From assembly GCA_032622095.1 (NCBI GenBank), contig CP136064.1, forward strand, positions 2,294,001-2,358,000: 64,000 nucleotides of DNA. Reading direction: 5' to 3'. The DNA is from Siphonodentalium dalli. Its lineage: Eukaryota; Mollusca; Scaphopoda; Gadilida; Siphonodentaliidae. Below the pieces are notes generated by a model that ran no database searches, was not told the DNA's origin, and saw only the letters and a list, made by a program, of their open reading frames with translations. Shown in pieces: positions 22,721 to 52,004 of this stretch. The stretch's first letter is position 1. Every line of letters begins with the position of its first letter. Both the position numbers and the translations under genes were made by a program.

Positions 22721-23654
22721 ACAAATGAAGTTGTGGTGGGGTATACTGGAATCAGCTTGTCCGTCGTCTGTCCATTCATGCGAGTTTTTCCTCAGTCGTT
22801 TATCGATCATTTTCCGTGAAACTTGGCATAGACATCAATCAATCACCATGGGAGCCTGTGCACATGCTATTATGACGTCTGGCAGACTTTTTTTGATGGA
22901 GTTATCCCCCTTTTTCGACTTAGAAATTGTTTTGCAACATGCCTAATTCTGTACGAGCTTTTATTCCTACATTGTTAGGTCAGTGTATTCCTGTCAAAGA
23001 TACATTACACACTGAACTACATGTTATATTCATTTTTATTCACAAAGAGAGGATCTATGAGATCCGTTTAAAATTTATTATTTGGTACGAAATAGCTTAA
23101 GTACCTTTTTGAATCATTATTATGACATAGCAAGTCACAGGTCACATGTCCACTAGCTGTATATAAGGCAGTGGACATCCACAGGTAAGTTCTCTTTTCA
23201 TCTTTGTGATTCAAGATCGAGGGAAGTAACGCTATGAGAAAATGAACCACACATTATTGTCGTGTTCATTTTTTAGTTTAACCTAATCCGTTCCAAGTTT
23301 TTACTTGTTGTGTGACTTCGTTTCAATTTGGGAAACGACACATAAGAATTTATTTGTCTTACGTAAAATAAAATTAAAAATCTCTTTGTTCGGTTGAGAA
23401 TTGTGGGAAATTTCCCAACTTCCGGTAACGACGCATGTGGTTTACAATTCCGAATTGAATTCGTCTTTTCCGGTTCGCGTGTCGAACTCTCTTCTGGAAC
23501 AATGTTTACACAGCTAGTCCACTTGCTATGTTATCTCTGTTCATTTGGTTTTATAATGTAAGTATTATTTCGAACCTTCGATCAGTGAGCCAACATTGGA
23601 TTTGTAACTTGTCACTCACAAATATGTTTCATGTTGACAAATGTAGCGAATGCG

Positions 23655-23810
23655 TAGGGAGCAAATTACCTGGCATCGCATCGCAAATTGCTACCCATAA
23701 TTGTATGGATTATAGCTATGTAATTTGTCATGACTTTGCTATGAGTTTAGCACAATGATATCTAATTAACTTCTTTGCTAATCCAAATTTCAATAGTAAT
23801 TTGCTCCCTG
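23655..23810 (-). mobile_element. AGGGAGCAAATTAC MITE, copy in element B
   Basis: Ends TAGGGAGCAAATTAC and GTAATTTGCTCCCTG form terminal inverted repeats; length 156 bp. Internal GGATTAGCAAAG matches the copy at 32459-32616. Target duplication is not evident, so it may be old. Confidence 0.65.
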
Positions 23811-24689
23811 CAAACACTAGTGGAGTGTATCGTTATCTGTATCGTTTCATTGGTCGGTTATCTGGATTTGTATCATGTCGTGACCGAGTGTGTCGCCGCT
23901 GCCCTAATGGCTGCACAGCATGATTCTGCTTCTCGTCCGATTTTAAGCTGCTCTGGGTTAAGGGGAAACGGTCTGCACATTAATCATACCTCGATGCCTC
24001 TTTCGAGGCTTTACCCAGCCCTGTTTATTCAGTTTTTACTATACAGAAAAAAACCCATTGGTTGGGTATGATGATCTGACATTTAGTTACAATTCTAATT
24101 AACAGGGCTGATTGCCATCCGACGAGAATTACGTTTCTCACTTGGGATTTCGGAAAACGCTTGCTGCTACATGTATTTCTTGTGTCTGGTCTGTATGGAA
24201 AAAATAAATAGAGACAATTACAGGGCATCGAGGGAAATCAGACGCAGTTTCTCTCCTCCGGTATGTGTCCTGGGGGGATTCGAGGGGGAACTGAGCGTTG
24301 GGCCATCAGACAGCGTGCCGTCTCATACCGGGTTTTCTCGGGTGCTGTACATAACAGTTAACATAGCGCAGTTATCGGCCTGGGCAGAGACTTTTAACAG
24401 ACACTCAATTTGTTGTGTAAACCATGGAGTTACCAGGGCTCAAACTTATTACCTTTCAATTGTCCCTGATTGGCATTGTACTTTGTTTATGGGCAACCAA
24501 TCGATTCTTCTGAATGTAAATTCTCCTCTTTACACAGATCATCTTTCACCCTTACTAAAGGTTCCGTGTGCGGAATCCTTCCAACAAATTTGCGAAGGTC
24601 AATCTGGTTTTCTACAGCGATCAGCTGCTTTTCCGCAAACCAAGCTGGGAATCACATTTCTAATTGCGTAGAGCATTCATTCTTTCAAC

Positions 24690-25015
24690 CCAGTTTATTA
24701 ACTCAGACCCGAGGACATTGTTTCAATTTACAAAAAACACCATTCATCGAAGGATGTCGGGAAGTATTTCTTCACCAATCGCGTGCCAGAAATGTGGAAT
24801 AAACTTCCAGAATCTATTGTGATCGCAGAGACGCTGGAACAATTCAAACCTCTAATCGACTATCACTTTTACAGCGAAAAAATTCACGTATGACGAGTAG
24901 CTGCATGCACGTCCATGTGACGAACACAAATAATTTTTCAAGTTCTTGTATCAGCATTAGCGGAACTAAAGGTCGGATAACCTGTTCCGAGATTAAATGA
25001 TTTGATTAACATTTG
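24690..25015 (+). pseudogene. LINE ORF2 C-terminal remnant
   Basis: Frame 24741-24893 reads KYFFTNRVPEMWNKLPESIV, then LEQFKPLIDYHF, ending at TGA. The F-x-N-R-V-x-x-x-W-N-x-L-P block is the common C-terminal signature of non-LTR retrotransposon ORF2 proteins. The preceding part (TRGHCFNLQKTPF) is in another frame, so there is a frameshift near 24750. The stretch to about 25015 is probably LINE 3' UTR. Only the tail is present; the RT domain is absent. It lies inside DIRS-like element B. Confidence 0.7.
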
Positions 25016-27544
25016 GCTCTCCAGCAGGGCTCAAAATATTTTTAATTTTGCGAGAATCAAATGCTGAATCAAGTCAGTCATAAAGCACTGAAAATTGAAA
25101 TGTTTTGTGAGAATCATTACGAGAATTGATTCTGTGATTCTTGTCGAATCTTAGGGCCTGCTCCAGCCTTAGAAAATTCCCAATGATTGTTCACCTGTAG
25201 TACCAGGCTTAGATCTATTCTCTGATGATATCGTGGCTTTTATAGTTGGGTTAGCTTATCGGGTTCAGATATAGACAATTGAACTCATGCAATCTTCTGA
25301 GGTGGCTGGTAAGAAATAAATAACCTGTTCCATGGGAACAGGCGTATTTCAGAATGTTGAGCCTGCGTCATGCCAAATGATGCCCTGAATGATTGAGTCC
25401 TTCGCCGCCGGGTTGTTTAGGGCATTGCTGTACTCAGTGTTCCTTTTTGACACGCTGTCTTGAATAACTCAAACAGGCAGGCAATCCTTCTAACGGCACA
25501 CATGAGGCAATCACCGTTGGTGACAGATGAGTCTCTGCCCACGGGGAGGAACTAGGGTCCGGGTCCTCGCTGTATGAGCGGCAGACAACCGTCAGACCAT
25601 ACCCACATGTGACTGGTCTTCCATAACATGACTACTCTCGACCAACTGTCGGAACAAGAATATGCCTTCACCTTAGTGGCTACGGTGGGCTGGAAACACG
25701 AACAGCTCATGGACCCGGGCCCTTCATCTGTTAAGAACAATCAGTGAATAACAAGAAGACACTTTCTTGTTGTTTTTAGACCTTCATCCTCCACAGCCTG
25801 TTCATCCTTTCCGACCGTTTGAAGTTGTTCCATCTCGATGGGCTTCCTCCTTCCAAACATTTTCTAATATATTACATACAGGCCTCCAAGTGTCCCTTTC
25901 CATCAAGGTAACTGAATACACTCGATTGGATCGACAGGCTGTGGAGGCAGTTACAACTCGGGACTCTCCGGACTTTTTTCTTCTCGATTGTTTCGATACG
26001 AGAGAACATTTTAGGAATTTCAAAATCCTATCACGCTCGTGTTGAACTTCGTTTACCAGGGGTTTTTCCAACCAGTTTCATGGCTCATTGTCCGATGGAA
26101 ATGGCTTATGTCCGGTGTATTTCTTACTCGAAGTAAAGTGTTTGCACTTTTGAAACCAATAACATGGGTTTTCCTGGGTTGCAATTGGACGCTCACTACA
26201 CTGTGAAGCCTCATATTAATACATCGATTGGACATTTAACTACTGTCATTTTGAAGTCAGTTACAAAATAATTATTTTGAGCCTTGACCGGTTGTTAACA
26301 AAATTGGGTTTGCACCTTTACTGACAGTATGTCGCAAAACTCACAATCATGGTTATGCGGCTATTGAGATCTAGGTTTTCTTCGCCAGAAATGAGGTTTG
26401 GTATGTTTCTAATTGTATTTACATTCACCTCTTCCTCATTTTACATCCAGATTGACTATTCAGGTAGCAATAGATTTCCTTCCTCTGGTGTCGAAACGTC
26501 GGGATATCTTGGTTCGTTCAGTCACAAGCATCGATCAGAGTGGTCTATGCTTTCTGCATATGAACAGCTTGCTCCATGGAGGAGACGGCACCTGCATGTA
26601 CATGCATATGACCTTTGGTCGATTTCTACCTAATGAGTTTTCAAAATTATTGGTTTGCCTGACTTCAGGAATAAAAGGGGGGTGGGGGGCTACGATTCAG
26701 CCATTGGGCTCATTCATCTACTTTCTCCACTTTACCGTGTATCATCAATCAAATCTGCGAATCAGTACCTTTTGGATCCATTTATTGCTACTCAGCAGGT
26801 TCAAAAGAATTGCTCTTAACCAAAATACAATAGTATCTCATTCCTCGCAGCCTCCTCCTATGAGTTGATTCTAACATGTAGTTCAGTGTGTAACATATCT
26901 TTGACGGGAATATAACATTTTCAATAGAAAATACATATTCCCTAATAAGATACTTACACACTGAACTCACATGTCCCTCCCAAATTGGGATTTCCCCTCC
27001 CCGCTGCTCGGTCACACCTCTCGAATCTTGTAAGAGGATGAAAAGAGAACTTACCTGTGGATGTCCACTGCCTTATATACAGCTAGTGGACACGTGACCT
27101 GAGACTTGCTACGTCATAATAATGATTCAAAAAGGTACTTAAGCTATTTCGTACCAAAATAATAAATTTTAAACTGATCTCATAGATCCTCTCTTTGTGA
27201 ATAAAAATGAATATAACATGTAGTTCAGTGTGTAAGTATCTTATTAGGGAATATGTATTTTCTATTGAAACTGTTATTTTTGATACTGGGCACATATATT
27301 TAGTACCACGGGAATCAGTGCACCTGCGATTATGACATTTGTACAACTTTTTTTGTGTGGAATTATTCCCCTTTTTCAACATGCATAATTTTGTCCGAGT
27401 TTTTATTCCTACATTTTTCGGTCAATAGGTTTTAGGATTAGTGTTAGAGGTTAGGGTTGTGCACCTGCAATGGGAATCTGTTATTTTATTATTTTAACTA
27501 AATCTTTACTGACAAGTGAAACATCTTTGTGTTTTAAAAACACC

Positions 27545-27565
27545 GGGGGGGGGGGGGGGGGGGGG
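27545..27565 (+). repeat. G21 homopolymer
   Basis: Uninterrupted G run followed by TGGGG. Could form quadruplex structures; length is likely polymorphic or uncertain. Confidence 0.9.
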
Positions 27566-27605
27566 TGGGGTATCCTTAGTCCCATTGGGACAGTCACACT
27601 CTAGT

Positions 27606-27930
27606 TATTTTTTTAAATATATAATTTTTATATCTCCTTACAAAGGGTGTATAACATTTATCAGCTTGGAACCTTCGATATGCATAGTAACAAGTAATTG
27701 TTTCTAGTTTACAGATATTACCACCCACCCCCCTGGGTACCACATTAAAACATGAGCAGGACCGAAAAGAAAATTTAAATAAAACAAGGATTATATAACT
27801 CTAGAATGGAAGGCTCGTTTGAAAGCAGTCATGATGGCAAACATCCATACCAAATTTCATTCAGATCCTACAAATTGTCTGCATTTTTAAACTCCCTTAC
27901 AGCTTTGTTGCAGAGTATAAATAATTTTTA
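27606..27930. other. Unassigned spacer between two core-repeat elements
   Basis: No gene. Contains a CCACCCACCCCCCTGGG block and an AAATTTCATTCAGATC motif like those in core-repeat units. Confidence 0.5.
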
Positions 27931-28360
27931 TACGCCCTTCTGAAAAAAGGTTGTATTATGTTATCAGTCTGTCTGTCCGTCCGTTAACATTTTTGGTTTC
28001 CGATCGATAACTCCAGTTTGGATTATTTGATCTGAACCAAAGTTGGTATGTGTATTTCCCAGCTAAAGATACAGGCCATGTTCAAATATGGGTTCCGTCC
28101 ATTTATTTTTACATGAGTTACGGCCCTTTTTCAACTTAGAATTTGACCATCTGTTAAAATTTTTGATTTCCGACTGATAACTCCAGTTTGGATCATTTGA
28201 TCTGAACCAAAGCTGGTATGTGTATTTCCCAGCTACTGATACAGGCCAAGTTCAAATATGGAGTCCGGTCAATTATTTTTACATGAGTTACGGCCCTTTT
28301 TCGACTTAGAATTTGACCAATTTCATAACATTTCGGTTTCCGACCGATAACTCCAGTTTT

Positions 28361-29812
28361 TAGTCGAGTTTTTTTCCAAAACTCGACTTATAGTTTGATG
28401 AGGGGCGACGGATGGGCGGGCGGCGTGTTTTGCTTATAACTCAACCGTTTATTGACGGATTAAAATTTCTTTTGGTGTGTGAGTACATATCCATGCACAT
28501 AAGCTGCAGACAAAAAATCGGGTTCGTCCGCACATTTATTACAGAGTTATGGCCCTTTGCCATTTTTCACTGATTTTAGGCTCGTTAGCACAACAACTTC
28601 AACAAACGTTATCTGATTCGATTGAAATTTGGCATATAGGTGTCTCCCAAGAATATCTCGGACGAGTTCGAAAACCGGCCTGGTCCGATAAAATTTGATA
28701 GAGTTATGGCCCTTAATTAGTCATTTTTCACGAATTTTCAGTTCGTTAGCGCGATAACTTCAACAAACGTTATCCGATTTGATTGAAATTTGGTATATAG
28801 GTGTCTCCCAAGAATATCTCGGACGAGTTTGAAAACCGGCAGGTCCGATAAAATTCGATAGAGTTATGGCCCTTAATTAGTCATTTTTCACGAATTTTCA
28901 GCTCGTTAGCGCGATAACTTCAACAAACGTTATCCGATTTGATTGAAATTTGGTATATAGGTGTCTCCCAAGAATATCTCGGTCAAGTTCGAAAACCGGC
29001 CAGGTCCGATAAAATTTGATAGAGTTATGGCCCTTAATTAGTCATTTTTCACGAATTTTCAGCGCGATAACTTCAACAAACGTTATCCGATATGATTGAA
29101 ATTTGGTATATATATAGGTGTCTCCCAAGAATATCTTGGTCGAGTTCGAAAACCGGCCAGGTCCGATAAAATTCGATAGAGTTATGGCCCTTAATTAGTC
29201 ATTTTTCACGAATTTTCAGTTCGTTAGCGCGATAACTTCAACAAACGTTATCCGATTTGATTGAAATTTGGTATATAGGTGTCTCCCAAGAATATCTCGG
29301 ACGAGTTCGAAAACCGGCGAGGTCCGATAAAATTCGATAGAGTTATGGCCCTTAATTAGTCATTTTTCACGAATTTTCAGCTCGTTAGCGCGATAACTTC
29401 AACAAACGTTATCCGATTTGATTGAAATTTGGTATATAGGTGTCTCCCAAGAATATCTCGGTCGAGTTCGAAAACCGGCCAGGTCCGATAAAATTTGATA
29501 GAGTTATGGCCCTTAATTAGTAATTTTTTCACAAATTTTCAGCTCGTGAGCGCGATAACTTCAACAAACGTCCTCCGATTTGTTTAAAATTTGGAATAGA
29601 CATACTTGCCAAGAATATTTCGGACGAGTTCGAAAACCAGCCTGGCCCGATAAAATTTGATAGAGTTATGGCCCTTAATTAGTCATTTTCGATTTTACCT
29701 ATTAATTAGTCTACCGATACTGATGCACACCAATTGGCGGTAGCCACTGGCGGTAGCCATCGGCGGTAAGCCACCGAAAACGAGACACAGCATCTCTGAT
29801 GCCACCTCTTGT
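28361..29812 (+). mobile_element. Nested core-repeat element (GTCGAGTTTTTTT head)
   Basis: Palindromic head with GTCGAG and CTCGAC ends (28363-28388), a purine-rich GGGGCGACGGATGGGCGGGCGG tract split as GGGGCGACGG plus ATGGGCGGGCGG, then seven units of about 155-160 bp with AACTTCAACAAACGTTATCC, GAAATTTGGTATATAGG, TCCCAAGAATATCTCGG and GAGTTATGGCCCTTAATTAG. It ends ATGCCACCTCTTGT. Units are very alike, suggesting recent amplification. Confidence 0.75.
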
Positions 29813-32450
29813 GATTACTTGATCTGAATCAAAGCTGGTATGTGTATTTCCCAGCTAAAACTACAGGCCAAGTTCGAATATAGGTTCTGTCTAATTATTT
29901 TTACATGAGTTGTTTTACACGGCCATTTTTCCGCCAAGGAAAGCCCTCAACTGAACTATGGATTACGTCTCCGGTCTTGTCTTGTGTCAATCAGGAGGGT
30001 TAAAATTTTATTGCTGTGCCGACCCCACTCACACCCGTGTTCAGATTAGTCGCGCATGAATACACTCGCATTCTATCTATTTTCTAGTCAGTTTTTAATT
30101 CCTCCTCGCCAGGACAGGATCGTTTCTATTTCTCAAGGTTGTATCTTTCTGTGTTGCGAGTTTATCAACTCAATATTTATTGTTGATATTACAAACTTGC
30201 AATTTATTGTACCCGATAGTTAATTAATATTTCTCACATCCGAAACGGGAACTTTTTCGTTTCATTGTATCCGTAATTTGTTTCCGGCTTTATCTTCAAA
30301 CAATTGGAATTAAGATTGCCATCTTGACAATGACTAAAGAAGCACATAGCTTACTTGTGACGAAACCACATATTGCATTTTGTGCCACATATACGGCGTG
30401 ATGACTATCATGAGTTACAATTGAGGACGCAATGTAGTACGGTATGCGATATCTCCTAATTTTGTGCTACACGTGTTCACTTTACATAAGTTTCCGTCGA
30501 CTCGCTTCGGTTATTTAGTAAGTTCCGTTGCTTTGTATCAGAACGTATACTGCCAAATCATACATGGAACTGCTCTGTTAATTCGCAGAAAGTTGCACAG
30601 GACAGCAATATCCTCCTTTGTAATAATTTACATGAATAAATACGAAAGATAGTCCTTGTTATCAGATGACAATTCACATTTCTTTCGACTGAGCGATCTG
30701 TAACTTTGTTTTAACGATCAATACCTGCGAATCTACGCCCGCCAGTATGTATGAACGTGTGGTCTTGTATCAGACACACGGCAAATACAATAAAACATTA
30801 CAGCGACTTCGTTATCACATATATAACCACACTTCAAATCTAAATATCGTGTTGCATTCTTTACATTCATGTATGTACAGTTTGGGTTACTACGAAATAT
30901 CGATCACCGACTGCAATGAAGTGAAAACGTTGTAACCTGACACTCCAGCTACACTTGGCTCACTTTACTTAAACAATGGTGATTCTACCCATGGTAAGAA
31001 CATTTTGGAGCCATCTTGGATGTTGGCCTTGAAGCGAGACCACTGGCATACTTGTGGAGAGTAACCATCCCCAATGGGAACTTGGCAAATACGGGAAAGC
31101 TTTGTCTTCAATATGGAACACCTCGTTCATCAGGGCATGGTCAGGGTGTTGCAATGATTTATTGGGTTGCCAGCGTCGCACTGAATTTTAATTAGATCGT
31201 TGTTTCTCCTTCTTATCATCCGCCAGATGATTTAAGATTTACGCCGCACATGGGTTGGCAATTAGAATTGTCAATCTTTGTGATATAACGACTGTGATCA
31301 GAAGATGTCACCAACTTGAAACATCTGACATCTTATCCTCAGACATTAGTGTTTGTCGATACATTCAATTTTTCGGTCCCATTGACATATTATGGTTTAA
31401 GTGCCTCAATGCCATCTTACTGTAGGACCTAATATTCCTCGGCATTGGCGAGCTTGCAATATGTATTGCACGCCGTAATAGTTCCATACATTGTACATGA
31501 CAATCATATGGTATCAGGGCCTCATGTATGCTGTCAGAACTGACTATGCTTACATATGGTGAACAGTTTTCATCCCAATACTGACATACTTTGCGGTTTC
31601 ATCAGTGAATAATAACGGCAAACAGCGAAATAGAAAGAATAAATATTGTCACATGCTCCAGATTCACTGCCAATAGTCTTTCCAATAGAGCCCATCACTT
31701 GGCTCATTAACTTCTATTTCCACATATATCGAAACGATAATCTGCCAAATATCTTTCACTCATGTATGACGCGCAGTTACATGCATCACATTTATATTGC
31801 GCAGAATATCAGAAAGGACTGCATTTGTATTGTTACATGTCTAAAGCGAGATTACATGCGCAGCGTTTATATTGCGCACATCTACTGCCAATATATTTCC
31901 GAAGAGGCCAAGACATGGCTCTTCGTCTATTGTCACATATCCAATGATTATCTGGCAAAACGATTCGATACAATCATAACGAAAATGAAGGCATTTGTAT
32001 CGTCGCGTCCGCTGTCAGCGCACTTTCCTAACGGAAACCGCCTAGTTCTTGCCCATGTGCATTCGGAACTCATCGTCCTCATATACGAGAAAAGACAGTA
32101 TCTTACCTGTCATAGCAGGTAAGATCACGTGGCCAGGGGTATAACGTGATTTTATATTAACCTTACTTTCTACTCTAAAACCTACAGATTGTATTGTATT
32201 ATGTATATTAACCTTGCTTTGTTAAAACTAACAGCATGTCTTGCAGTCGAAAGTGATTCAAATTTGATGGCCACACACCGTGCGTGTTGCTCATTCACGG
32301 GTGTATTACTTGTTATAGTTGGGTGAGGGCATATTAGTCAATGATTACCTACCAGTCTTTACCTCGGGCAGGACCAGTTCTGTGGCATGATATAATGAAA
32401 CATCATACCTTGCTATGATATCTGCAGCATATCATTTTTATATCTGGTTT

Positions 32451-32624
32451 GTGTATCACAGGGAGCAAATTACTTTCGAAATTTTGATTAGCAAATAATC
32501 TCACATTGACATGATTAGATAGCATTTTTATAACATCATATAAAAATTCCTCGCTATTACCTGTATCCACATTTCAGTAGCAAATCGCGATGCGATTCAA
32601 GTTAATTTGCTCCCTGGTGTATCA
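32451..32624 (+). mobile_element. AGGGAGCAAATTAC MITE with 8-bp target duplication
   Basis: Element 32459-32616 (158 bp) has ends CAGGGAGCAAATTAC and TTAATTTGCTCCCTG, flanked by GTGTATCA at 32451-32458 and 32617-32624. Eight-base duplications and CAGGG-type ends fit the hAT superfamily. Inserted in DIRS-like element A. Confidence 0.88.
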
Positions 32625-32838
32625 TAAGCATTCTGATATCTTATGGCATACCCAATGGCTGCATGTGACATCAGTTCATAATGTGAACTGTCGAGAGAGC
32701 GAAGCAGATGACAAAGAGAATAGGATGAAGCGACGGAAGAAGTGAAGGAAAAGAAGTCTCTTCAAAAGTTATACTTGCTCGGTTGTCTTGCTAGCATGAA
32801 TTATATGGCACTACCTGGGATGGTTCTTCCAAAAACAA

Positions 32839-32855
32839 GGGGGGGGGGGGGGGGG
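32839..32855 (+). repeat. G17 homopolymer
   Basis: Uninterrupted G run inside DIRS-like element A. Confidence 0.9.
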
Positions 32856-33012
32856 CGGTACACATTTGAGCAATGTTGGAATCTGAATTGGGAGCTCTTT
32901 CAAGTAACTTTTTCATGACTAAATCACATTTACATGAAACTTGTTTCGGAAGAGTACATTCCCATCGAATTTGGATATTAATTGCTCGTGCCTCCTCCTG
33001 GGCTTGCATTCT

Positions 33013-33110
33013 AATCCATATAGTTCAGTTGAGGGCTTTCCTTGGCGGAAAAATAATTTTTTTTAAATTAAAATTACTTGTTCCTTAAGGGAAGCCCGAA
33101 ACTGAACTAT
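33013..33110. repeat. Internal complementary region of element A
   Basis: Left half is the reverse complement of the left outer end of the element; right half is the reverse complement of the right outer end. Located about 80 bp before the right ITR, the position expected for a DIRS ICR. Confidence 0.65.
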
Positions 33111-33756
33111 CATAGATCCCTCCCATGGTGGTGCCATTCCCAACCCCGCGACTCGCAAATCTCATGATTAAGTCGGAAATAAAAAACTGACTAGAAAATA
33201 GATAGAATGCGGGTGTATTCATGCACGACTAATCTGAACACGGGTGTGAGTGGGGTCGGCACAGCAATAAAATTTTAACCCTCTTGATTGACACAAGGCC
33301 GGAGACGTAATCCATATCGTTCAGTTTCGGGCTTCCCTTAAGGAAAAAGTAATTTTAATTTTAAAAATTATATTTTTCGACTTAGAATTTGACTGCATTT
33401 TGGCATTGAAATTAGGGGTATATCAGATTTTCTTCAAATGTAAGCTCAAAGTATTTTTTTATTTTGCGGTAGTACAATTCGAAATGGCTAAAGGGTGTAT
33501 TTTGCCACGCCCTAGCGGTGCTCTTGTTTAGAACAGTGATTGCATCTTAAAAACATTGTTTATTGAAAGTCATTAATTATCCTATGCAACTTACAGAACC
33601 AGATGGTGAAATATAAATGCAGTTGTTAATATGAAAATGGAGCGAACAGAAGTGATGGAATCACTCTCCAGGAAGATCCTGATGGAAGGTACCAGTATAC
33701 TTGAAGTACTATGTTTCTCACATAAATAGCCCCTAAATACAGTCTCATATCTTTAG

Positions 33757-34485
33757 TAAGGCCTGTTTTATACGTCGCGCCAAACACGGGTCTGGCTCGT
33801 GTTACATTTGTTTGATTTATACGTCGAGCCAGCTGGCACGTGCTGTAATCGTATATTTCGAACAATTTTAGCATTTCTGATTCAAAATTCCATCTGCTAT
33901 AATCATTTCCGTCATAGTGTCATCTGACAATGCACTATAACCTGGCCCTCGTTGTGTCTTTATTTACACTTCTATACAGTTGGTTTCAAAATCAGGATCT
34001 TGTGATTCATTTCCCTCAAACCTTCAAATATATTTCTCTGCAATATATTTATTCCCAAATTTCGCGAAACGTCCTTTGTCAGTCGATACATGCATGTCCC
34101 TGTAGTACCGTACAATGATCCAGAGTTAGCACATCTGTGGCCCGACGCTGTTTTATACGACGTGCCAGACACGGGTCGCGCTGGGATGACTCGAGAGATA
34201 ACATAATGACGTGAAAAACTTCAAATTGCGCATGCTCTCCGCCAAAGGGGTCCTAAGTGAGGAATGGTTTTCTATGAATCATCTTAGCACGACCCGTGTT
34301 TAGCACGTTGTATAAAACAGCGTCGAGCCCCAGACGTGTAGCACGTCTGTTCGTGCCAGAGAAATTCTGACGAGCCAGTTGGTTTTATACGTCATGCTCC
34401 AGTCGCGCTATCTTGGACTTTGTCATTTTCATACTAATTAGGCTGACGCGACCCGTTTCTGGCTCGACGTATAAAACGGGCCTAA
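33757..34485. mobile_element. Harbinger-like TIR element with nested related element
   Basis: Element 33760-34482 (723 bp) has ends GGCCTGTTTTATACGTCG and, on the other strand, GGCCCGTTTTATACGTCG, with TAA on both sides (33757-33759, 34483-34485). A three-base TWA duplication fits PIF/Harbinger. Inside, 34143-34325 is a second inverted-repeat unit with CGACGCTGTTTTATACGACG type arms sharing the TGTTTTATACG core. No transposase. Confidence 0.75.
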
Positions 34486-35003
34486 GACACACGTGTGTTA
34501 TCACAACGCGATGTGACATCAGAGTTCAGTGCAATGATATCGATGTCAATGCTGGAACTTTATTATTATGTTAATTAGAAAAAAATTATGATATTCGACT
34601 TGTGTTGTATTATTTTGTGTTGACTGTGAGACAAAAAATCGGTGATAAGGTGGCTGAAAAATGTTGTCAGCACGAAAAGACATATTTGAAATGGAACTGT
34701 ATTTTTTCTTAAAGGTGTCTTTACTTCCTCTTTGGTTGTGATAAGGAAATCAATATTAGTTTGTTTTACTTCCAGCCGTTACGAGATCATTTTTCCTTGA
34801 TAAAATGTGATTATGTGATAAAATGAATCTCATATTCGTCGCAATTATAAACAAAATTTATTAACCTCGTCCATAGTGCACTCGGTTAATAAATTTTGTA
34901 TAGAATTGTGACTCATTAGAGATCCTCTATTTATGGAATCCCAACAGTATGAACTCTGCCAATAACATGTATTTAAATTCTCATATCTCTCCAAGTTATA
35001 TTG
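34486..35003. other. Unassigned AT-rich DNA
   Basis: No gene or element recognised apart from a small inverted motif around AATAAATTTTGTAT (about 34855-34900). Confidence 0.5.
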
Positions 35004-39507: not shown

Positions 39508-39643
39508 TTACACGGCTTGTTGATGGGGGATACGGTGTGGTATGCCCCGGTAGATGCTCGTATCCCCCGAGGCGATAGCCGAGGGGGATACGAGAGTCGA
39601 CTGGGGCATACCACACCGTATCCCCCATCAACAAGCCGTGTAA
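39508..39643. repeat. Long nested hairpin
   Basis: Perfect 41-bp arms 39508-39548 and 39603-39643 (TTACACGGCTTGTTGATGGG at the outer left). The 54-base interior contains a second stem (CTCGTATCCCC with GGGGATACGAG). The words TTACACGG and GGGGCATAC are shared with the 88-bp satellite monomer that follows. Confidence 0.9.
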
Positions 39644-39983
39644 TGTATTTATCCCCGGTCAAAATTAACAAGATATTCCCACAGACATAAAGCGCGGAAA
39701 CGAGCCACGAACAGTAACTCTATTTGATTACGATGAATATATTTAAATAGCTGTTTCCACAATTTGTCCATAAAAACTTGCTGGCCTCGCTTACTTTTGG
39801 AATCTATATGTTAGAAGATATAAAAGAGAGCAATACACTTCAAAAATAGTAATGGTAAATGAGTCAGACAACCTAAATAAATGAAGCAAGAGTAGCAAGA
39901 TAACATCACACCAGGAATCATCGTGGCTTTGAAAGATGTACATTAGACCTTCAAACTTTTGCTGGGTCATAAAAATTCTACTA

Positions 39984-41905
39984 GGGGCATACGAGATTGT
40001 TATGACCTTGTAAAATCTGTCTTCTCTATATAGCGACGACAATTTTTGCGGGGTAATATCACTTTTACACGGGGCATACGAGATTGTTATGACCCGTGTA
40101 AAATCTGTCTTCTCTATATAGCGACGACAATTTTTGCGGGGTAATATCACTTTTACACGGGGCATACGAGATTGTTATGACCCGTGTAAAATCTGTCTTC
40201 TCTATATAGCGACGACAATTTTTGCGGGGTAATATCAGTTTTACACGGGGCATACGAGATTGTTATGACCCGTGTAAAATCTGTCTTCTCTATACAGTGA
40301 CGACAATTTTTGCGGGGTAATATCAGTTTTACACGGGGCATACGAGATTGTTATGACCCGTGTAAAATCTGTCTTCTCTATATAGCGACGACAATTTTTG
40401 CGGGGTAATATCATTTTTACACGGGGCATACGTGATTCTTATGACCCGTGTAAAATCTGTCTTCTCTATATAGCGACGACAATTTTTGCGGGGTAATATC
40501 AGTTTTACACGGGGCATACGAGATTGTTATGACCCGTGTAAAATCTGTCTTCTCTATATAGCGACGACAATTTTTGCGGGGTAATATCAGTTTTACACGG
40601 GGCATACGAGATTGTTATGACCCGTGTAAAATCTGTCTTCTCTATATAGCGACGACAATTTTTGCGGGGTAATATCAGTTTTACACGGGGCATACGAGAT
40701 TGTTATGACCCGTGTAAAATCTGTCTTCTCTATATAGCGACGACAATTTTTGCGGGGTAATATCAGTTTTACACGGGGCATACGAGATTGTTATGACCCG
40801 TGTCAAATCTGTCTTCTCTATATAGCGACGACAATTTTTGTGGGGTAATATCAGTTTTACACGGGGCATACGAGATTGTTATGACCCGTGTAAAATCTGT
40901 CTTCTCTATATAGCGACGACAATTTTTGCGGGGTAATATCAGTTTTACACGGGGCATACGAGATTGTTATGACCCGTGTCAAATCTGTCTTCTCTATATA
41001 GCGACGACAATTTTTGCGGGGTAATATCACTTTTACACGGGGCATACGAGATTGTTATGACCCGTGTAAAATCTGTCTTCTCTATATAGCGACGATAATT
41101 TTTGCAGGGTAATATCAGTTTTACACGGGGCATACGAGATTGTTATGTCCCGTGTAAAATCTGTCTTCTCTATATAGCGACGACAATTTTTGCGGGGTAA
41201 TATCAGTTTTACACGGGGCATACGAGATTGTTATGTCCCGTGTAAAATCTGTCTTCTCTATATAGCGACGACAATTTTTGCCGGGTAATATCAGTTTTAC
41301 AAGGGGCATACGAGATTGTTATGACCCGTGTAAAATCTGTCTTCTCTATATAGCGACGACAATTTTTGCGGGGTAATATCAGTTTTATACGGGGCATACG
41401 AGATTGTTATGACCCGTGTAAAATCTGTCTTCTCTATATAGCGACGATAATTTTTGCAGGGTAATATCATTTTTACACGGGGCATACGAGATTGTTATGA
41501 CCCGTGTAAAATCTGTCTTCTCTATATAGCGACGACAATTTTTGCGGGGTAATATAAGTTTTACACGGGGCATACAAGATTGTTATGACCTTGTAAAATC
41601 TGTCTTCTCTATATAGCGACGACAATTTTTGCGGGGTAATATCACTTTTACACGGGGCATACGAGATTGTTATGACCCGGGTAAAATCTGTCTTCTCTAT
41701 ATAGCGACGACAATTTTTGCGGGGTAATATCACTTTTACACGGGGCATACGAGATTGTTATGACCCGTGTAAAATCTGTCTTCTCTATATAGCGACGACA
41801 ATTTTTGCGGGGTAATATCAGTTTTACACGGGGCATACGAGATTGTTATGACCCGTGTAAAATCTGTCTTCTCTATATAGCGACGACAATTTTTGCGGGG
41901 TAATA
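39984..41905. repeat. 88-bp satellite array, 22 units
   Basis: About 22 head-to-tail units of 88 bp (a few 87), nearly identical. Each contains TTTTACACGGG and CCCGTGTAAAA as inverted arms around ATACGAGATTGTTATG, plus CTCTATATAGCGACGAC. Because 88 is not a multiple of three, every unit opens a 62-codon minus-strand frame that stops two units later; these are not genes. Flanked by GATACGGTGTGGTATGCCCC (39527) and GATACGGCGTGGTATGGCCC (41956), and by ATTTATCCCC / GGGGATAAAT. Confidence 0.95.
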
Positions 41906-42085
41906 CGAAATAAGTGTTTCCTGTTTAGTTAACATATATCGAACAAGAACACCGGGATACGGCGTGGTATGGCCCTAGAAGAACAATGGTGCCTAAGAAG
42001 GCTTACAATTCTACAGAGGGGATAAATGTTGTTAGTTCATCATTATTCACGGCTCGTGATGTTCCATTAAACATGTATAATATAA

Positions 42086-42545
42086 TTGTCCCCTAAAAAA
42101 AATTTCGGGGGACTATTAAAATAGCCGGTGTCTGTCCGTCGTACCGCCCGTCTAGCCGTCCGTCTGTGTGTGCGTCCGGAAATGGTTTCCGGATGATAAC
42201 TTTAGTTTCGTTTATTAGATCATAAGCTAATTTTATAGTTGAGTTTATCAGACCAAAATACAGGTCAAGTTCGAATATGGCCCATTTGTGCGAGAGTTAT
42301 GGAGCTTTTTTTTACTTAGAATCTTGTAATTTTCCGGTTTCCGGATGATAACTTCAGTTTGTGTGATCATATCTGAATCAAATTTAGTATGATAGTTTAT
42401 CAGCCGAAAATACAGGTCAGATTCGAATATGGGTTTTCTCTGCCAATTTTTTTGAGAGTTATGGCCCTTTTACGACTTAGAATCCTGTCAATTTCTGGTT
42501 TCCGGATGATAACTTTAGTTTGTGTGATCATATCTGAATCAAATT
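42086..42545 (+). mobile_element. Core-repeat element (GTCCCC head)
   Basis: Head GTCCCC...GGGGGAC (42090-42115), then GTCCGTCGTACCGCCCG, then about three units of about 155 bp with GGATGATAACTTTAGTTT, TACAGGTCAAGTTCGAATAT and GAGAGTTATGG. It may extend to about 42735, since TGTCCTCCGAAAAAATT and GGGGGTCTATATA recur there, after an insertion of minisatellite-like sequence. Confidence 0.65.
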
Positions 42546-42599
42546 GATGCCCCAAATGAAGCCACTTTTTCGGAGGACACTGGTCGGACGGCCTTTTAT

Positions 42600-43099
42600 T
42601 ATATATTGTCAAGAGCAATGAGCTGCATATATTCTCTTGTGAGTGTATCATTATAAAGAACAGGACATCGCGAGTTGCATATATATATCTTCCTCATATT
42701 TCTGACTGTCCTCCGAAAAAATTGTTGGGGGTCTATATAATGATGAATTAACTGCATATATTGACAAATTGTTTACACATATTGGCAAGAGCAATGCACT
42801 GCTGATATTGGCGAAGTAACAGCATATATTGACGAAGTAACCTCATGTATTGAGCAAGTCTTCTCGGTCCACAACAGTTGGGATATCGGTTGAGTTGATG
42901 CTGTTTGGGACAGAGTCCCGTCCCGTTACTAGACTATAACAGACTTTCATTTAAGAGACGTACTACATTTACATGTGGAGCCCCTGAATGTGATTAATCA
43001 TCTAACATGTCCGCGATTAATCTGTCTTCAAAATGCTATATAATTTACCGTGATACAAAAAGATAAAGTGATGATACAATCGTTTAATATACTGTTATT
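42600..43099 (+). other. Minisatellite fragments and unassigned DNA
   Basis: 42740-42860 holds plus-strand fragments of the TTGAC..GCATATA minisatellite. 42861-43099 is unassigned. Confidence 0.5.
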
Positions 43100-45406
43100 A
43101 GCTCAACTTTACTTTGTAAAGTTTGAGCTATTGCCATGGCTTGGTATCCGTCGTCCGTGTGTGTGTGCGTGTGTGCGTGATGCGTCAACAATTTCCTTTA
43201 GCACGGGCTACAGTTCGTACCTTTGGTCCGATTATTATGAAATTTGTCATGGATGTTGACATTGACATGTAGATGGGAACGAGTCATTTTGGGGTCATTC
43301 GGAAAAAAAACATGGCTGCCAGTGGCCATCTTGGATTTCAAAATTCAATCCATTAGCACGGGCTACAGGCCGTACCGTTTGTCTTATTGTCATGAAATTT
43401 GTCATGGATGTTAATATTGACATGTAGATGGGAACGAGTAATTTTGGGATCATTTGGCCAAAAAACATGGCCGTCGGCAGCCATCTTAGATTTTACTCTT
43501 TGCATGACTAAATCCTTTAGCACGGGCTTCAGGTTGTACCTTTGGTCAGATCATCATAAAATTTGTCATGGATGTTAACAATGACATGTAGATGGGAACG
43601 AGTCATTTTGGGGTCATTCGGCCAAAAAACATGGCCGCCAGCAGCCATCTTGGATTTTACTCTTTGTATGACTAAATCCTTTAGCACGGGCTACAGTTCG
43701 TACCTTTAGTCTGATCATCATGAAATTTGTCATGGATGTTAACAATGGCATGTAGATGGGAACGAGTCATTTTGGGGTCATTCCGACAAAAAACATGGCC
43801 GCCAGCAGCCATCTTTGGTTTCAAAATTTAATTCATTAGCACGGGCCACAGGTCGTACTGTTCGTCTGATCATCATGAAATTTGTCATGGATGTTAATAT
43901 TGACATGCAGATGGGAACGAGTGATTTTGGGGTCATTCGGCCAAAAAACATGGCCGGCAGCAGCCATCTTGGATTTTACTCTTTGTATGACTAAATTCTT
44001 TAGCACGGGCTACAGGTCATACCTTTAGTCTGATCATCATAAAATTTGTCAGAATGTTAACAATGACATGTAAATGGGAAACGAGTTATTTTGGGGTCAT
44101 TCGGCCGAAAAACATGGCCACCAGCAGCCATCTTGAATTTTACTCTTTGTATCACTAAATTCTTTAGCACGGGCTACAGGTCGTACCTTTAGTCTGATCA
44201 TCATAAAAATTTTCATGAATGTTAACAATGATATGTAGATGGGAACGAGTCATTTTAGGGTCATTTGGCCGAAAAACATGGCCGCCAGCAGCCATCTTGG
44301 ATTTTACTCTTTGTATGACTAAATCCTTTAGCACGGGCTACAGTTCGTACCTTTAGTCTGATAATTATAAAATTTGTCATGGATGTTAAAAATGGCATGT
44401 AGATGGGAACGAGTTATTTTGGGGTCATTCCGACAAAAAACATGGCCGCCAGCAGCCATCTTTGATTTCAAAATTCAATCCATTAGCACAGGCTGCAGGT
44501 CATACTGTTAGTCTGATCATCATGAAATTTGTCATGGATGTTAATATTGACATGTAGATGAGAACGAGTGATTTTGGGGTCGTTCGGCCAAAAAACATAG
44601 CCACCAGCAGCCATCTTGGATTTTACTCTTTGCATGACTAAATCCTTTCCCGCTGGCTACAGGTCGTAGCTTTGATCAGAACTTCATGAAATTTGTCATG
44701 GATGTTAACAATGACATGTAGATGGGAACGAGTCATTTTGTGGTTGTTCAGCCAAAAAACATGGCCACCAGCAGCCATCTTGGATTTTACTCTTTGCATG
44801 ACTAAATCCTTTGGTGGGGCTGCAGGTCATACCTTTAGTAGGATCTTCATGAAATTTGTCATGGCTGTTGACATTGACATGTAGATGGGAACGAGTCATT
44901 TTGGGGTCATTCGACCAAAAAACATGGCCACTGGTGGCCCATCTTGCATTTCAAAATTAAATCCATTGGCGCGGGCGGGCTACATGTAGTACTATTCGTC
45001 TGATAATCATGAAATTTGTCATGGATGTTAATATTGACATGTAGATCGGAACGAGTCATTTTGGTGTCGTTCGGCCAAAAATCATGGCCGCCAGCAATCA
45101 TCTTGGATTTTACTCTTTGCATGACTAAATCCTTTGGTGCAGGCTACAGGTTGTAGCTTTGGTCGGATCTTCATAAAATTTGTCATGGATGTTAATAATG
45201 ACATGTAGATGGGAACGAGTTCTTATGGGGTCATTCGGCCAAAAATCATGGCCACCAGCAGCCATCTTGGATTTGACTCTTTGCATAACTAAATCCTTTG
45301 GCACAGGTAAGACATTTCAATCAGCATCTTTACTATTTCTCCATTTACTGTAAACCATTAAATTATTCCCCTACCTAAGTTGAGCTACAGTGTCATTGAC
45401 ACTTTC
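43100..45406 (+). mobile_element. Satellite-bearing composite element, copy 2
   Basis: Same plan as 6415-10635: palindromic head at 43100-43129, CCGTCGTCCGTGTGTG tract, 13 units of about 161 bp, and the terminal AAGTTGAGCTACAG plus AGTGTCATTGACACT ending at 45406. Complete and uninterrupted, so it is the better reference copy. Confidence 0.8.
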
Positions 45407-45484
45407 ATATATTATATATTTTATGATAGCGCGACAAATCAAAATTCTCCGGAAAACAAGGCTTTGTTCAGCGGACCTCTGGTA

Positions 45485-47004
45485 TGTTTGATATTATTGA
45501 TTAACTAACCGCATATACATGTATTGATAAATTAGCTGCATATAGTGGCAAAGTAGCTGCATATATTGATAAATGACCACATATATTGACAAAGAAGCTG
45601 CATATATTGACTAACTAACCAAATTTAATGGACGATGTAGCTGCATAAATTTACTAATTAACCACATATATTTATAACATGCATAGCTGCATATATTGAC
45701 AAATTAGATGAATATATTGACAAATTAGCTGCATATAATCGCAAATGAGCTACATATATTGACTAACTAACCACATATGTTGACAAATGAGCTACATATA
45801 TTGACTAACTAACCACATATGTTGACAAATGAGCTACATATATTGACTAACTAACCACAACTATTGACAAATTAGCTGCATATATTGACTAACTAACCAC
45901 AAACATTGATAAAGTAGCTGCATATATTGTCAACGCAATTTCGTATTTTGACAAAGTAGATGTATATATTGACCATCAAACCACATATATTGACTAAGTA
46001 GCTGCACATAATGACTAACTAACCACATATATTGACTAAGTAGATGTATATATTGACCAACTAACCGCATATATTGACTAAGTAGATGTATATATTGACC
46101 AACTAACCGCATATATTGACTAAGTAACTGCATTTAATGACTAACTAACAGGGGGCCTCAGTGGCTCAATCGGTTAGGGGTACAACTCCAAGCCGTTTCA
46201 CCTTCCAGCGCTGGTGATAAGGGTTCAAATCCACATGTTTCCATCGTGGACTTTGTAACTCAAAATCATTATCTGGGAAAGTTGCCAGTTACTTGCCGAT
46301 GGCCGGTGGTTTGCCGCACATGGTCGACGAGTTTATCAGCCATTGAAATCACTGTTAGATTAGCCGTAAGTGTGCGGATTTCCTCCACCATTAAAACTGG
46401 CAATGTCGTGATATGGCCTTAGTGGCTAAAGCGACATAAAACCCCAATCAATCAATCAATCATTTAATGACTAACTAACCACATATATTTATAACGTATC
46501 TGCATATAATTAAATAGCTGCATATATTGACAAATTAGATGAATATATTGACAAATTTAGCTGCATATAATGGCAAATGAGCTACATATATTGACTAACT
46601 AACCACATATATTGACAAATTATCTGCATATATTGACTAACCACAAATTGACAAATTAGCTGCATATATTGACTAACTAACCACATATATTAACTAAGTA
46701 GCTGCATATAATGACTAACTAACCGCATATATTGACTAAGTAGCTGCATATAATGACTAACTAACCGCATATATTGACTAAGTAGCAGCATATAATGACT
46801 AACTAACCACATATATTAACTAAGTAGCTGCATATAATGACTAACTAACCACATATATTAACTAAGTAGCTGCATATAATGACTAACTAACCACATATAT
46901 TGACTAAGTAGCAGCATATAATGACTAACTAACCACATATATTGATATAAAGTAGCTGCACATAATGACTAACTTACCATATATATTGATAACGTAGTTG
47001 CATA
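45485..47004 (+). repeat. 21-23 bp minisatellite array
   Basis: Alternating units of the types TTGACTAACTAACCACATAT and TTGACAAATTAGCTGCATAT, giving dimers of about 44 bp. Interrupted by the SINE at 46150-46460. Confidence 0.9.
46131..46479 (+). mobile_element. tRNA-derived SINE, copy 2, with 19-bp target duplication
   Basis: The SINE body 46150-46460 is nearly identical to the copy at 12066-12378, with A-box TGGCTCAATCGG, B-box GGTTCAAATCC and CAAT tail. It is flanked by CATTTAATGACTAACTAAC at 46131-46149 and 46461-46479. The CATTTAATGA variant is distinctive within the array, supporting a real target duplication. Confidence 0.92.
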
Positions 47005-49429
47005 TATTGCATATCTCCGTCAAAGGTATCTTGCCCACTGAACTATATGGTATATTATCCCAAGTAGGAGGGGTTAACTCTCCGAGTTGAAAAAAAAACG
47101 TACGAAAATTCTATGGTACATATCTTCTGTCATGTTCATGACCCGTGTAATCACGTGGTTTCTGACCCGTATTGAGAGAACAGCCATATTTTTTCTCCTC
47201 CTAGTCGAGGACGGGTGCTAAAAGAAAATCTCTCACAAAGAATACGAAGCTAAGTTGCAGTTTGTATAGCAAAAACAGTTTTGTTTTTGTTTTACACAAA
47301 CAACATTATTTCTTTGCTTATAGTTGAAAATTATGTAACGATTCACATAAAGATTACGACGGTTTGTTCCGAATATAATAATTTCGGAATCGGATGACTT
47401 GTTTCGTTTTACCGACTTTGTCTTCCATAATTTTAATCGGTCAATGATTTAATATCCGTTTCTGTGCAGAATGCAACGTTTCCAGCCTATTAAAGGCAGA
47501 ACATTCGCGGCACCATTGGATATGACTAAAGACGCTGGTCGTTTTCTTTATACAAAATCTATGGCATACAGGTGACGTGTTATTTAAGTTACCACGTGCG
47601 TTGACGGTGGTTAAAGGTATCACGAAATTAGGTGACTTCTTTTCGAGTTCATTTTTTCGTTTGACGGCTTTCTTTATACGTTAACAATCATCGTCTGGTG
47701 TACAACTGACGGATACAGCAGTGTTTAAATAGGCTGATAGGATTGTAAAATCCCGAATGTCACTTTGAACATTTTTCACCCTGGATGATTAACAATGTGG
47801 CCGTTACTGCCTTGGTTGCCACATGGTAACATAACACAACAGGTGTATTTGTGATGGTTCGCACTCACATTCATTACTTTCACAGGACTGCTAATCAAGG
47901 TAAGACCAGGTTCATGAATCGCCTTCCCCGTAGCTCCCCTTGCAGTCGCTTCCCTCGTTTCGAGGTCCCAAGAGTTGAGAACGAAAGTCGATATATAGGG
48001 TTCCTCTAATTGGCGTAATTAGCACTCGGAGCGATAGTCACACCACATAGGACGCGGGTTGGTGCTACCTATAAAACCCGTAGCTCCCACGAGTTGCTTC
48101 CCCTAGAACCCGGACAAACTCGCGGGGAAGGATCCAGGGATTTTTTGTTTGGGAACACCTGTTCTGTATTTGAGTATGTGCCCATATAAATTTGGATGTT
48201 AAAATATTCAGTACTGGATACTTGATTGTGCAAATAAAGGCTCCATATTATAGACTATATATCATCTGCGGGCTGCTGATTTGCATTACGAGGACATTTT
48301 GTTGAATTGTAGAAAAACTCCTTGACAATATGGAAGATCCAACTGGAATAAATACTATCTACATGGAATTTGGGGACATTTGGGTCTCTATAGTTTGGGC
48401 ACCCAAACTTTTAACAGGTATCAAAACATCCCTGTATCCTTCTCTGACTTGCCGATATATCGTGTTCCTCTAATGGCGTAATTAGGACTTGGGGCGATAG
48501 TCACACCAAACAGGCGCGGGTTGGGAATCCCCATTGAACCCATGAGACACCCTGGTGCGCACCTGGACTATCGAATGGGACGTCAATCTGCTTCTGCGGG
48601 TCGTCCGTTGGCTGTTGGCGTGCCCCGGACGACGGTGACCACTGAGCTCTACTAACACACTCGACACACGCCGTCCATCGCTACAAGTCGTCATCTCGGG
48701 GTCAGCGCGGCTGGGGGATACACCCTCGGTGATCCTTGACCATGCTCTCCGGTGCCTTATGATCATGGTGTGTGGGGATTTGGGCTAAAATTACTGGTCG
48801 AATGGCCATTTTACTATTGTCTCACTTCAAATTAAGAGAATTTTTTTTTTTCTCAAATTGTTACATTTACGCGATTATTTGGCGCCTGAAAGTTTATCCT
48901 CCTTGCCATCTGTCCCAGCTGGGCTTGGAATGGGTTCACAGTTCACAGACTTGTTTCCTCCTTATTATAAGTCCCCACTTCTGGGGGCTTGGCTGACAGG
49001 TTACTGGCCGCATTCTGGCCAACAGCTGCCAGTAACTTCAGGTTTGATTTTAAATGAAAACAAAAGATCTTATTCCCTGACGCCATTATAGCAGGAAGCT
49101 TGCTTGGGAATTGGTACCTACTAACCTCCCATCGCCAGTTCGGTCGGTTGGATATCGGGATTGGTCCTGCTGCTGCTCCACCCCGAGATGTACAGGCTCT
49201 GGACATTCCTCCGGGGTCCCCAATGACCAGACCTCACATGCATTTAGAAATGCAGCTTGTCGTGGTGTATTGTGCTGTTAACACTCCATCGACAGATGGA
49301 GATCAGGATCAGATAGAGCAGTCGCTCCAGCACGAGGTGAAAGGGCTTTCGACATTCCTTTCGGGTCACCTTTACATGCGCTTACGAGGGAGCTCAGTTA
49401 GTTGTTCAGGGTTCTTTGATGCAGCCAAG

Positions 49430-49520
49430 CGCAGGAAGAAAATTAATGTCGAATTTTGTTTAGCAAATAACCTCAGATTGACATGATTTGATAGCATTGT
49501 TCTACAATCATTTACAATTT
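49430..49520 (+). repeat. Fragment of the AGGGAGCAAATTAC MITE in element C
   Basis: CAGGAAGAAAATTAATG followed by TTTAGCAAATAACCTCAG and TTGACATGATTTGATAGC matches the first part of the MITE at 32459-32616. The 3' end is absent. Confidence 0.55.
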
Positions 49521-49884
49521 CACAGAACATCAGAGTGCTTTCCCTTGTTTCGAGGGTCCCAAGGAAGCGATAGAAACCTTTACGACCAGTACACTGTCAC
49601 TTGTCGATGTATAGTGTTCCTTCATTGGCGTAATTAGCACTCGGGATGATAGTCCCACCAAAACAGGTCGCGGGTTGGGGCTACCCATCAAACCCATTGG
49701 CCGCATTTGGTGGGCTTTCTGGACTATTGACAGGGACTCCAAGTCGGTTACTACGGGCCGGCTGTTGGCTTACCCTGGGACAGTCAAATGAGAAAATAGG
49801 ATACAAGTTGCAGGGCTTTTGTTAGCATTTGGGTAGCAACTTGCCCTGTGTTGCCGGCCAGTTTGTACCCTGCTTAACGTCGTC

Positions 49885-49965
49885 AGAGATGGGTGGTTAT
49901 ACCATCGGCCTGCACACTTGGTGACCTGGGTTCGACCATCCTCAGAGGTATTCCACCATTTTACT
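49885..49965 (+). repeat. Possible tRNA-like SINE head
   Basis: GGGTGGTTATACCATCGG, CTTGGTGACCTGGGTTCGAC resembles the A-box to B-box portion of a tRNA-derived SINE. No tail or target duplication seen. Confidence 0.3.
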
Positions 49966-51638
49966 GTTCTCGGGTTGGGTTGTGTTCAACTTCTTGCTTT
50001 ATAAGTGGTTGCTTCTTTCCATGTTCCATCCAGCTCTTTCATGATCACGGGCTTTGCTGGAGAATGTCTGTAGTCATTCATATCACTAGATTAGTATATG
50101 ACTCTCGCCTTTTCATTTTCCTGACTTTTTTAAGATTTGTTCTGGACTGGGTCGGGTGCTCGAGAGGGTAAATATTTACATCTCGATTTGGGACGCAAGA
50201 ATTAGAGATAAACAAGCATACATGCTTTCTCTCCGACCGCGCTGTGTTTCCGTAATAGATACGAATGACATATATTTTGTCTTCAGGTTGCTTACAGTGC
50301 TAACTCAACATGGATTTCACTTTTGTTGTCCAGTCATACATCTATGAGTCCATTATCCATGGTTTGACATATGCTCATTTTCAGACCACTGTTGACATGA
50401 GGTCTCGTTCAGCACACCACTCGGTCCTTTGCTGCCCTCAGCGATTGCCAATGCAGGATAATGTTGCACCGGTGGGGCAGCATATGAATCGTGTTGGGCA
50501 CAATTCATAAAGTTTCATTACATACCTGCCATTGGTTTCTGCTGGGTTTGGGCTTGTGCCACAATCCTGATGCCTCGTTCGTCCAATTTTTGTTTTTATG
50601 GATTTCCACCTTAACGATGTTGGAATTTCGATTCCTGGCTGCCTTTCTGTCATGGATTCAGTAGCCTGTGATTGGTCAGTTGGGTTTCACTGTGTGGGTG
50701 GGCATTTCCATATTTGGGAACGTCATCAGGGAAACAATGTCATGACTTATTACATCTTAGTCGGTCATATCTCGAACTTCAGGCTTCAAACTAAGTTTTC
50801 TGCTGTGAAACTCCAATTCTGAGCCCTGTTCTTCATCCGGCCTGAGCCTTGCAACATATGTCTGTGTAATATCCATTCCCTTCCTGGTCAGGCTATTGGT
50901 CAATGATACCTCCTCCTTATCGACAATGGCGTGTCTCCAAGCAGTTGGTGTCTGGCCCTTTCTTGGGAGCTTGCAGCTGGTTTTTCATCGTGCTCTCATT
51001 GGGTACTGGGACACGGCCCAACCCACTCCATATTTGGGTCGGGGGTGGGTTCTATTGTTTTTAAGGGGGGTCTTCGTTATTACTTGCAGCTTTTAGCTGC
51101 TGCCTGGGTTAGCCTGTTAGGTGCGGTATTAGTATTTAGCCATACCTGGGTTTATAATACCAGGCTGGGGATTTATTGTCAACAGGTCTTTTTCTATTTC
51201 CATTTCCTTGGAACATGGAGGCTTCTCCCCTTTCGGGGAGGGGGGGGGGGTGTGTTACCCGTACCTTTCCCGGTAAGTACTCGGCTGATACATTATTCCC
51301 TAAGTTCCGATGGGAATGTCGTTTCCGACTATCCGTCTCCAGGTCTTCTGAAGCTATTTACTTTACTTGCAGGGGTCTTAAACTCTTAAGTGGCCACTTT
51401 TTGTTCGTTTGTGAGTGCTGACCGGTATTAGTTTAGGATGGAATGTAACATTGGCTTATGGTCCTATTGTGCATGTGTGTATATATATATATATATGTAT
51501 ATACATATATCTCTATATGTCTGTGCATGTGTATGTATATATTGTAGGTTCTCAGGTCAATCCAGTTCTTTGATTCAGATGCATAGCAGTGTTTTTGTTT
51601 CCTCGTGGCCTCCACCTGTTAGAAAATTCTATGTTTTA

Positions 51639-51735
51639 CCATATAGTTCAGTGGGCAAGATACCTTTGACGGAGATACAATATTTTCCTTAAAAAGTAAA
51701 ATATATATCTCCTAGAGGTATCTTGCCCACTGAAC
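51639..51735. repeat. Internal complementary region of element C
   Basis: Fused reverse complements of the two outer ends of element C, about 50 bp before the right ITR; see the entry for the whole element. Confidence 0.7.
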
Positions 51736-52004
51736 GCTGAGCTCCCTCCCAGGGTTTCGCACCCACCCCGCTCACGAGGAATGTCCTACTGGGGATAAAA
51801 AATATGGCTGTTCTCTCAATACGGGTCAGAAACCACGTGATTACACGGGTCATGAACATGACAGAAGATATGTACCATAGAATTTTCGTACGTTTTTTTT
51901 CAACTCGGAGAGTTAACCCCTCCTACTTGGGATAATATACCATATAGTTCAGTGGGCAAGATACCTCTAGGAGATATATATTTTACTTTTTAAGGAAAAT
52001 ATTG

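Follow-up and report, generated by a model that had tools for sequence, protein, structure and literature searches.

Three diverged elements with DIRS-type terminal architecture and no recognisable coding domains

Introduction

The anatomy of DIRS1-like retrotransposons, as given in the accessible text of a published survey, comprises inverted terminal repeats (ITRs), a right extension, and a left and a right internal complementary region (ICR) that meet at a circular junction of 3 bp (PMC3266345). Reported sizes are 66-316 bp for the ITR, 9-75 bp for the right extension, 24-110 bp for the left ICR and 36-89 bp for the right ICR, and the circular junction is often AAT (PMC3266345). The part played by the ICR in DIRS replication is a model, which the available portion of its source calls not fully proven (PMC5633606). 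A further DIRS survey includes, according to its accessible text, only elements in which one or more protein domains could be detected (PMC3783388). The closest described case to the elements reported here, in the accessible parts of the literature searched, is SIRE of Trypanosoma cruzi, a truncated form of VIPER that is non-autonomous (PMC6681497). In those same parts of the literature, no description of a gene-less element that combines ITRs with an ICR was found, and Repbase or subscription papers may well list non-autonomous DIRS families.

Here we describe three elements (A, B and C) in a window of 64 kb, the whole stretch of DNA that was analysed. Each has the complete DIRS terminal architecture and lacks any recognisable domain, and all three were probably copied via a DNA circle by a reverse transcriptase (RT) and a tyrosine recombinase acting in trans, with full-length DIRS elements at other sites of the genome as their source.

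Results

A structure finder that required an ITR pair and two inverted matches joining at a single internal point was applied to all 552 inverted match rows of the window, and A, B and C were the only three loci to pass. The same finder returned 0 matches in each of 50 dinucleotide shuffles, in which satellite structure is not preserved; chance or low complexity as a source of the three elements is ruled out by this comparison, which confirms the DIRS architecture claimed for them in the original prediction. An earlier version of the finder with looser scoring had recovered no locus, either from the real window or from 20 shuffles, probably because matches merged, and the stricter scoring was adopted after that. 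One copy of each element was seen, all within 30 kb of the window. The borders listed in Table 1, in which the 3-bp core is counted at each end, are refined from A 29926-33378, B 22974-27277 and C 47005-52004.

Self-comparison of each element revealed ITRs with non-identical outer tips (three of three elements) and an ICR just inside the right repeat. Within the ICR, the left half reads as the left tip in reverse complement, and the right half likewise as the right tip, again in all three, so that the internal junctions match both tips, as had been predicted. The two halves measure about 41-47 bp (left) and 61-66 bp (right) and join on approximately 3 bp in each element. This core is in register in all three: A has ATT at the left end, ATT at the right end and AAT in the ICR, C has TAT, TAT and ATA, respectively, and B has ATT on the left, AAT in the ICR and, on the right, TTT, one mismatch from ATT. 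The circular junction thus reads AAT in A and in B, and ATA in C. A right extension of 26 bp (A), 38 bp (B) or 31 bp (C) follows the local ITR alignment and is matched by the right ICR. The sequence common to both ITRs and both ICRs amounts to 14 nt in B, 20 nt in C and 8 nt (exact) in A, so that the length of at least 10 nt expected of DIRS1-like elements is reached in two of the three. At the inner end of the left ITR of B (23160-23190), a TATATAA stretch at 23160 is followed by an CAGGTAAGT string at 23182, and both are mirrored in the right ITR; judged by their letters, they are a possible candidate promoter and splice donor.

Table 1. Positions of the three elements, their repeats and associated features within the window
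Feature	Position	Strand	Remarks
Element A	29925..33374	+	3450 bp; core ATT left (29925-29927) and right (33372-33374)
A left ITR	29926..30100	+	90.4% to right ITR, 160/177 columns
A right ITR	33178..33348	-	33349-33374, past the ITR alignment, is the right extension, matched by right ICR
A left ICR, reverse complement of left tip	33012..33054	-	0.93 to own left tip; core AAT 33052-33054
A right ICR, reverse complement of right tip	33048..33110	-	0.90 to own right tip
Element B	22987..27280	+	4294 bp; left core ATT, right core TTT (one mismatch)
B left ITR	22997..23202	+	97.1% to right ITR, 201/207 columns
B right ITR	27037..27242	-	27243-27280, past the ITR alignment, is the right extension
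B left ICR	26866..26912	-	0.89 to own left tip; core AAT 26909-26911
B right ICR	26909..26974	-	0.95 to own right tip
Element C	47012..52007	+	4996 bp; core TAT at both ends; within a 21/42-bp minisatellite
C left ITR	47012..47198	+	97.3% to right ITR, 182/187 columns
C right ITR	51793..51976	-	51977-52007, past the ITR alignment, is the right extension
C left ICR	51637..51677	-	local match to 51683; core ATA 51675-51677; 0.95 to own left tip when taken as 51637-51679
C right ICR	51675..51735	-	61/61 to own right tip
Pyrimidine box GCCTCCTCCT, upstream of A ICR	32990..32999	+	B copy 26850-26859
Pyrimidine box, C copy (GCCTCCACCT)	51608-51617		upstream of C ICR
TCCCTCCCA box, downstream of A ICR	33117..33125	+	identical letters in B (26974-26982) and C (51743-51751)
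Presumed hAT-like MITE nested in A	32459..32616	.	region 32451-32624; perfect 8-bp flanking repeats GTGTATCA
Unfilled counterpart of A target site	28290..28317	+	unit of a ~170-bp tandem repeat, 27983-28359

Each ICR half is 89-100% identical to its own tip across the three elements and 0.60-0.77 identical to the tips of the other two, about the level found between tips of different elements (64-70%). Within each element, the ICR and the tips have thus remained matched despite the divergence between elements, which is what rebuilding of the tips from the ICR in every round would be expected to produce. The original prediction that the elements have little sequence in common holds for the interiors, which are mostly unlike apart from a 90-158-bp MITE-like repeat, the only further similarity between them. 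It does not hold for the tips or for the cassette around the ICR, which is alignable across A, B and C and approximately 70% identical between B and C over 181 columns, with motifs beside the ICR that are common to all three elements. In a translated comparison, the matches between elements were confined to the termini, the ICR and the MITE-like repeat, and the DNA comparison also gave one weak match, between B (25317-25364) and a stretch outside the elements (53714-53760).

Outside its tip-complementary part, the cassette retains GCCTCC[TA]CCT upstream and TCCCTCCCA downstream of the ICR in A, B and C. Pairwise local scores of the upstream flanks were reached by 1 (A-B), 6 (A-C) and 2 (B-C) of 2000 shuffles, and those of the downstream flanks by 29, 3 and 2 of 2000, in the same order. 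Folded as single-stranded RNA, the ICR of each element forms a long hairpin (z -8.8, -11.2 and -12.8) that none of 200 shuffles equalled in stability. This hairpin arises because both ICR halves contain ITR boundary sequence, and its letters differ from element to element. The boxes and the hairpin are candidate cis signals for replication.

The interiors (A 30100-33180, B 23203-27036 and C 47205-51785) were translated in six frames, with stops read as X, and compared with Pfam at E<=1. None of the 18 translations matched any family, leaving no Pfam trace of RT, RNase H, methyltransferase, recombinase or gag; this bears out the original observation that a recombinase or RT is not recognisable, and coding remnants of another element class were likewise absent from the Pfam comparison. 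Five other stretches of the window (30 translations; 10906-14586 at E<=1, the remaining four at E<=0.1) also gave nothing above the curated cut-off, with weak matches to DYN_lid and TEX19 below it, so that the sensitivity of the scan is without a positive control in this window. The longest open reading frames comprise 159 (A), 190 (B) and 160 (C) codons; of 200 shuffles, 4, 5 and 31, respectively, contained a frame at least as long. Against a large protein set, the longest frame of A had 2 word-sharing candidates and that of B had 39, none of them at E<=1e-3.

These interiors could in principle belong to old full-length DIRS1-like retrotransposons whose genes for gag, pol and recombinase eroded at the present sites once the elements had inserted. 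The lengths of C and B fall within the range of 3974-6283 bp (mean 5160) given for autonomous DIRS elements in the accessible part of the survey (PMC3266345), the interior of C has a GC content of 44.7%, above most 2-kb bins of the window, and the longest reading frames of A and B exceed those of most shuffles. In-place decay is nevertheless improbable, since ITRs and ICR-tip pairs that are 89-100% alike point to modest neutral decay, yet no frame matches Pfam even at the permissive threshold; moreover, none of the 28 elements in the accessible table is as short as A (PMC3266345). With ICR-tip pairs this similar, any genes that the elements still had when they last inserted should be recognisable today, and their absence suggests that they were probably lost before that insertion. 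The enzymes would then have been supplied from elsewhere.

A stretch shared by the interiors was considered as a DIRS coding remnant and rejected. The copy in A is instead a MITE-like insertion, recognised by its inverted ends (CAGGGAGC...GCTCCCTG) and 8-bp flanking repeats, which we take to be of the hAT type. Its relatives lie in B (23656-23810, reverse), where a clean duplication was not seen, and in C (49432-49521, partial). Element C also harbours three copies of a repeat of approximately 90 bp (47987-48079, 48447-48543 and 49603-49695), the letters of which look tRNA-like by eye, yet ARAGORN detects no tRNA in them. At default thresholds, neither tRNA nor Rfam content was found in the whole window. 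The 19-base tip of C had no match in viral contigs, a result of little weight when the element is eukaryotic.

The sequence flanking A has a homologue in one unit of the ~170-bp tandem repeat, which lies 1.6 kb upstream. When the flanks are joined on the core, the result is ACGGCC-ATTTTTCGACTTAGAATTTGAC, and the repeat unit reads ACGGCC-CTTTTTCGACTTAGAATTTGAC; the alignment has no gap at the joint, and a single mismatch falls within the next 22 columns. There are small gaps farther out on the left, and the similarity on the right stops after those 22 columns. DIRS1-like elements are expected to insert at a core identical to their circular junction and to make no separate target duplication. 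This unfilled unit is evidence for insertion on the 3-bp core in A only. The two ends of A have 7 bases in common (ATTTTTC), so that A taken alone is compatible with a longer target duplication. The joined flanks of C align to many stretches of its minisatellite array. With the joint on the TAT core, the best alignments are gapped, the array having 12 additional bases in two of the stretches and lacking 9 in the third; with the joint a few bases away (TTG near both ends), there is only a 1-base gap, in one stretch. The joint is therefore ambiguous by about 12 bp within the minisatellite, and with a gap at the joint the flanks give no clean unfilled site on the core for C. The array around C is irregular, making an old indel possible, and a short target duplication is another possible reading of the site. 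For B there is no unfilled counterpart, as the flanking repeat stops short of crossing the insertion site.

Such short duplications would be expected if A, B and C were ordinary terminal-inverted-repeat or foldback DNA transposons, a reading with which the inverted repeats of about 175-210 bp, the few bases that recur at both ends (TAT for C, ATTTTTC for A) and the readability of the C site all agree. We regard it as very improbable, because DNA transposons have no use for an internal copy in which both tips are joined in circle order and the core occurs once. PAT-like, Ngaro or VIPER elements, although assigned to the same order of tyrosine-recombinase retroelements (PMC3266345), have split direct repeats in their accessible descriptions (PMC3266345, PMC9210276, PMC6681497) against the inverted repeats and ICR found here, and can be dismissed almost entirely.

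Other repeats are present in the window. A large near-palindrome at 9000-10343 has 571-nt arms that are 94% complementary and 202 nt apart, and is either a foldback element or an inverted duplication. A second inverted repeat, of about 300 columns (84%; 10906-11196 and 14297-14586), bounds a 3.7-kb segment without a confident Pfam match in six frames; the ICR finder did not recover it, so it is not counted as a fourth element, and it is possibly a different transposon. An 88-bp satellite occupies 39984-41905 (about 22 copies, 97% matches), and a 164-bp satellite family, assigned by consensus, forms two separate arrays at 6517-8957 and 43194-45304.

Discussion

With ITRs, an ICR on a 3-bp junction and a right extension in each element, and no Pfam trace of the enzymes, the original reading of A, B and C as non-autonomous DIRS derivatives is supported. 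Their replication may be pictured along the lines of the DIRS-1 model, as far as it is set out in the accessible text of its sources (PMC5633606, PMC3266345). A transcript would run from the left ITR toward the right ITR and lack the outermost tips. While the cDNA is being made, both ends would pair with the ICR, which would template the missing tips, and the rebuilt ends would meet on the 3-bp core to yield a circular DNA. A tyrosine recombinase, presumably provided in trans like the RT, would then recombine the circle at the core with a short matching target, a step that we infer for B and C.

Gene-less elements that are mutually diverged, each with an ITR and ICR matched to its own tips, amount to a natural experiment on which cis sequences are sufficient, and the comparison of A, B and C points to two candidate motifs beside the ICR. 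It is possible, and we put this forward tentatively as the more speculative proposal, that DIRS replication needs in cis only the two termini and an ICR cassette of approximately 200 bp (pyrimidine box, ICR hairpin and second pyrimidine box), with any DNA between them being carried along. The genome might thus host diverse gene-less DIRS shuttles that regenerate their tips from the ICR and escape protein-based annotation. Surveys built on protein domains, as the accessible descriptions of two of them indicate (PMC3266345, PMC3783388), would miss elements of this kind, and non-autonomous DIRS elements may therefore be under-counted.

Compared with DIRS1-like elements such as Dictyostelium DIRS-1, AcaDIRS, LgDIRS, BmDIRS1 and others, the repeat sizes of A, B and C lie within the ranges given in the accessible part of the published survey (PMC3266345). 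Autonomous DIRS1-like elements encode gag, RT/RNase H, usually a methyltransferase, and a tyrosine recombinase, whereas none of these is detectable with Pfam in the three elements. SIRE resembles them as a gene-less derivative of a tyrosine-recombinase retroelement that has retained terminal sequences, and differs in its size (about 435 bp by the parts given), its split direct repeats and its VIPER-derived ends, according to the available text (PMC6681497). Unlike SIRE, A, B and C are 3.4-5.0 kb long, combine ITRs with an ICR, and have interiors that are mostly dissimilar to one another.

LARDs and TRIMs are non-autonomous LTR elements that retain their termini and cis signals and have lost their genes, with a long non-coding interior in the case of LARDs. 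A, B and C are similar to them in keeping the termini around a non-coding interior from which the genes are gone (for the names, see the accessible text of PMC8498967). The difference lies in the ends and the route of integration, as LARDs and TRIMs have direct LTRs and depend on an integrase, whereas A, B and C have inverted repeats with an ICR.
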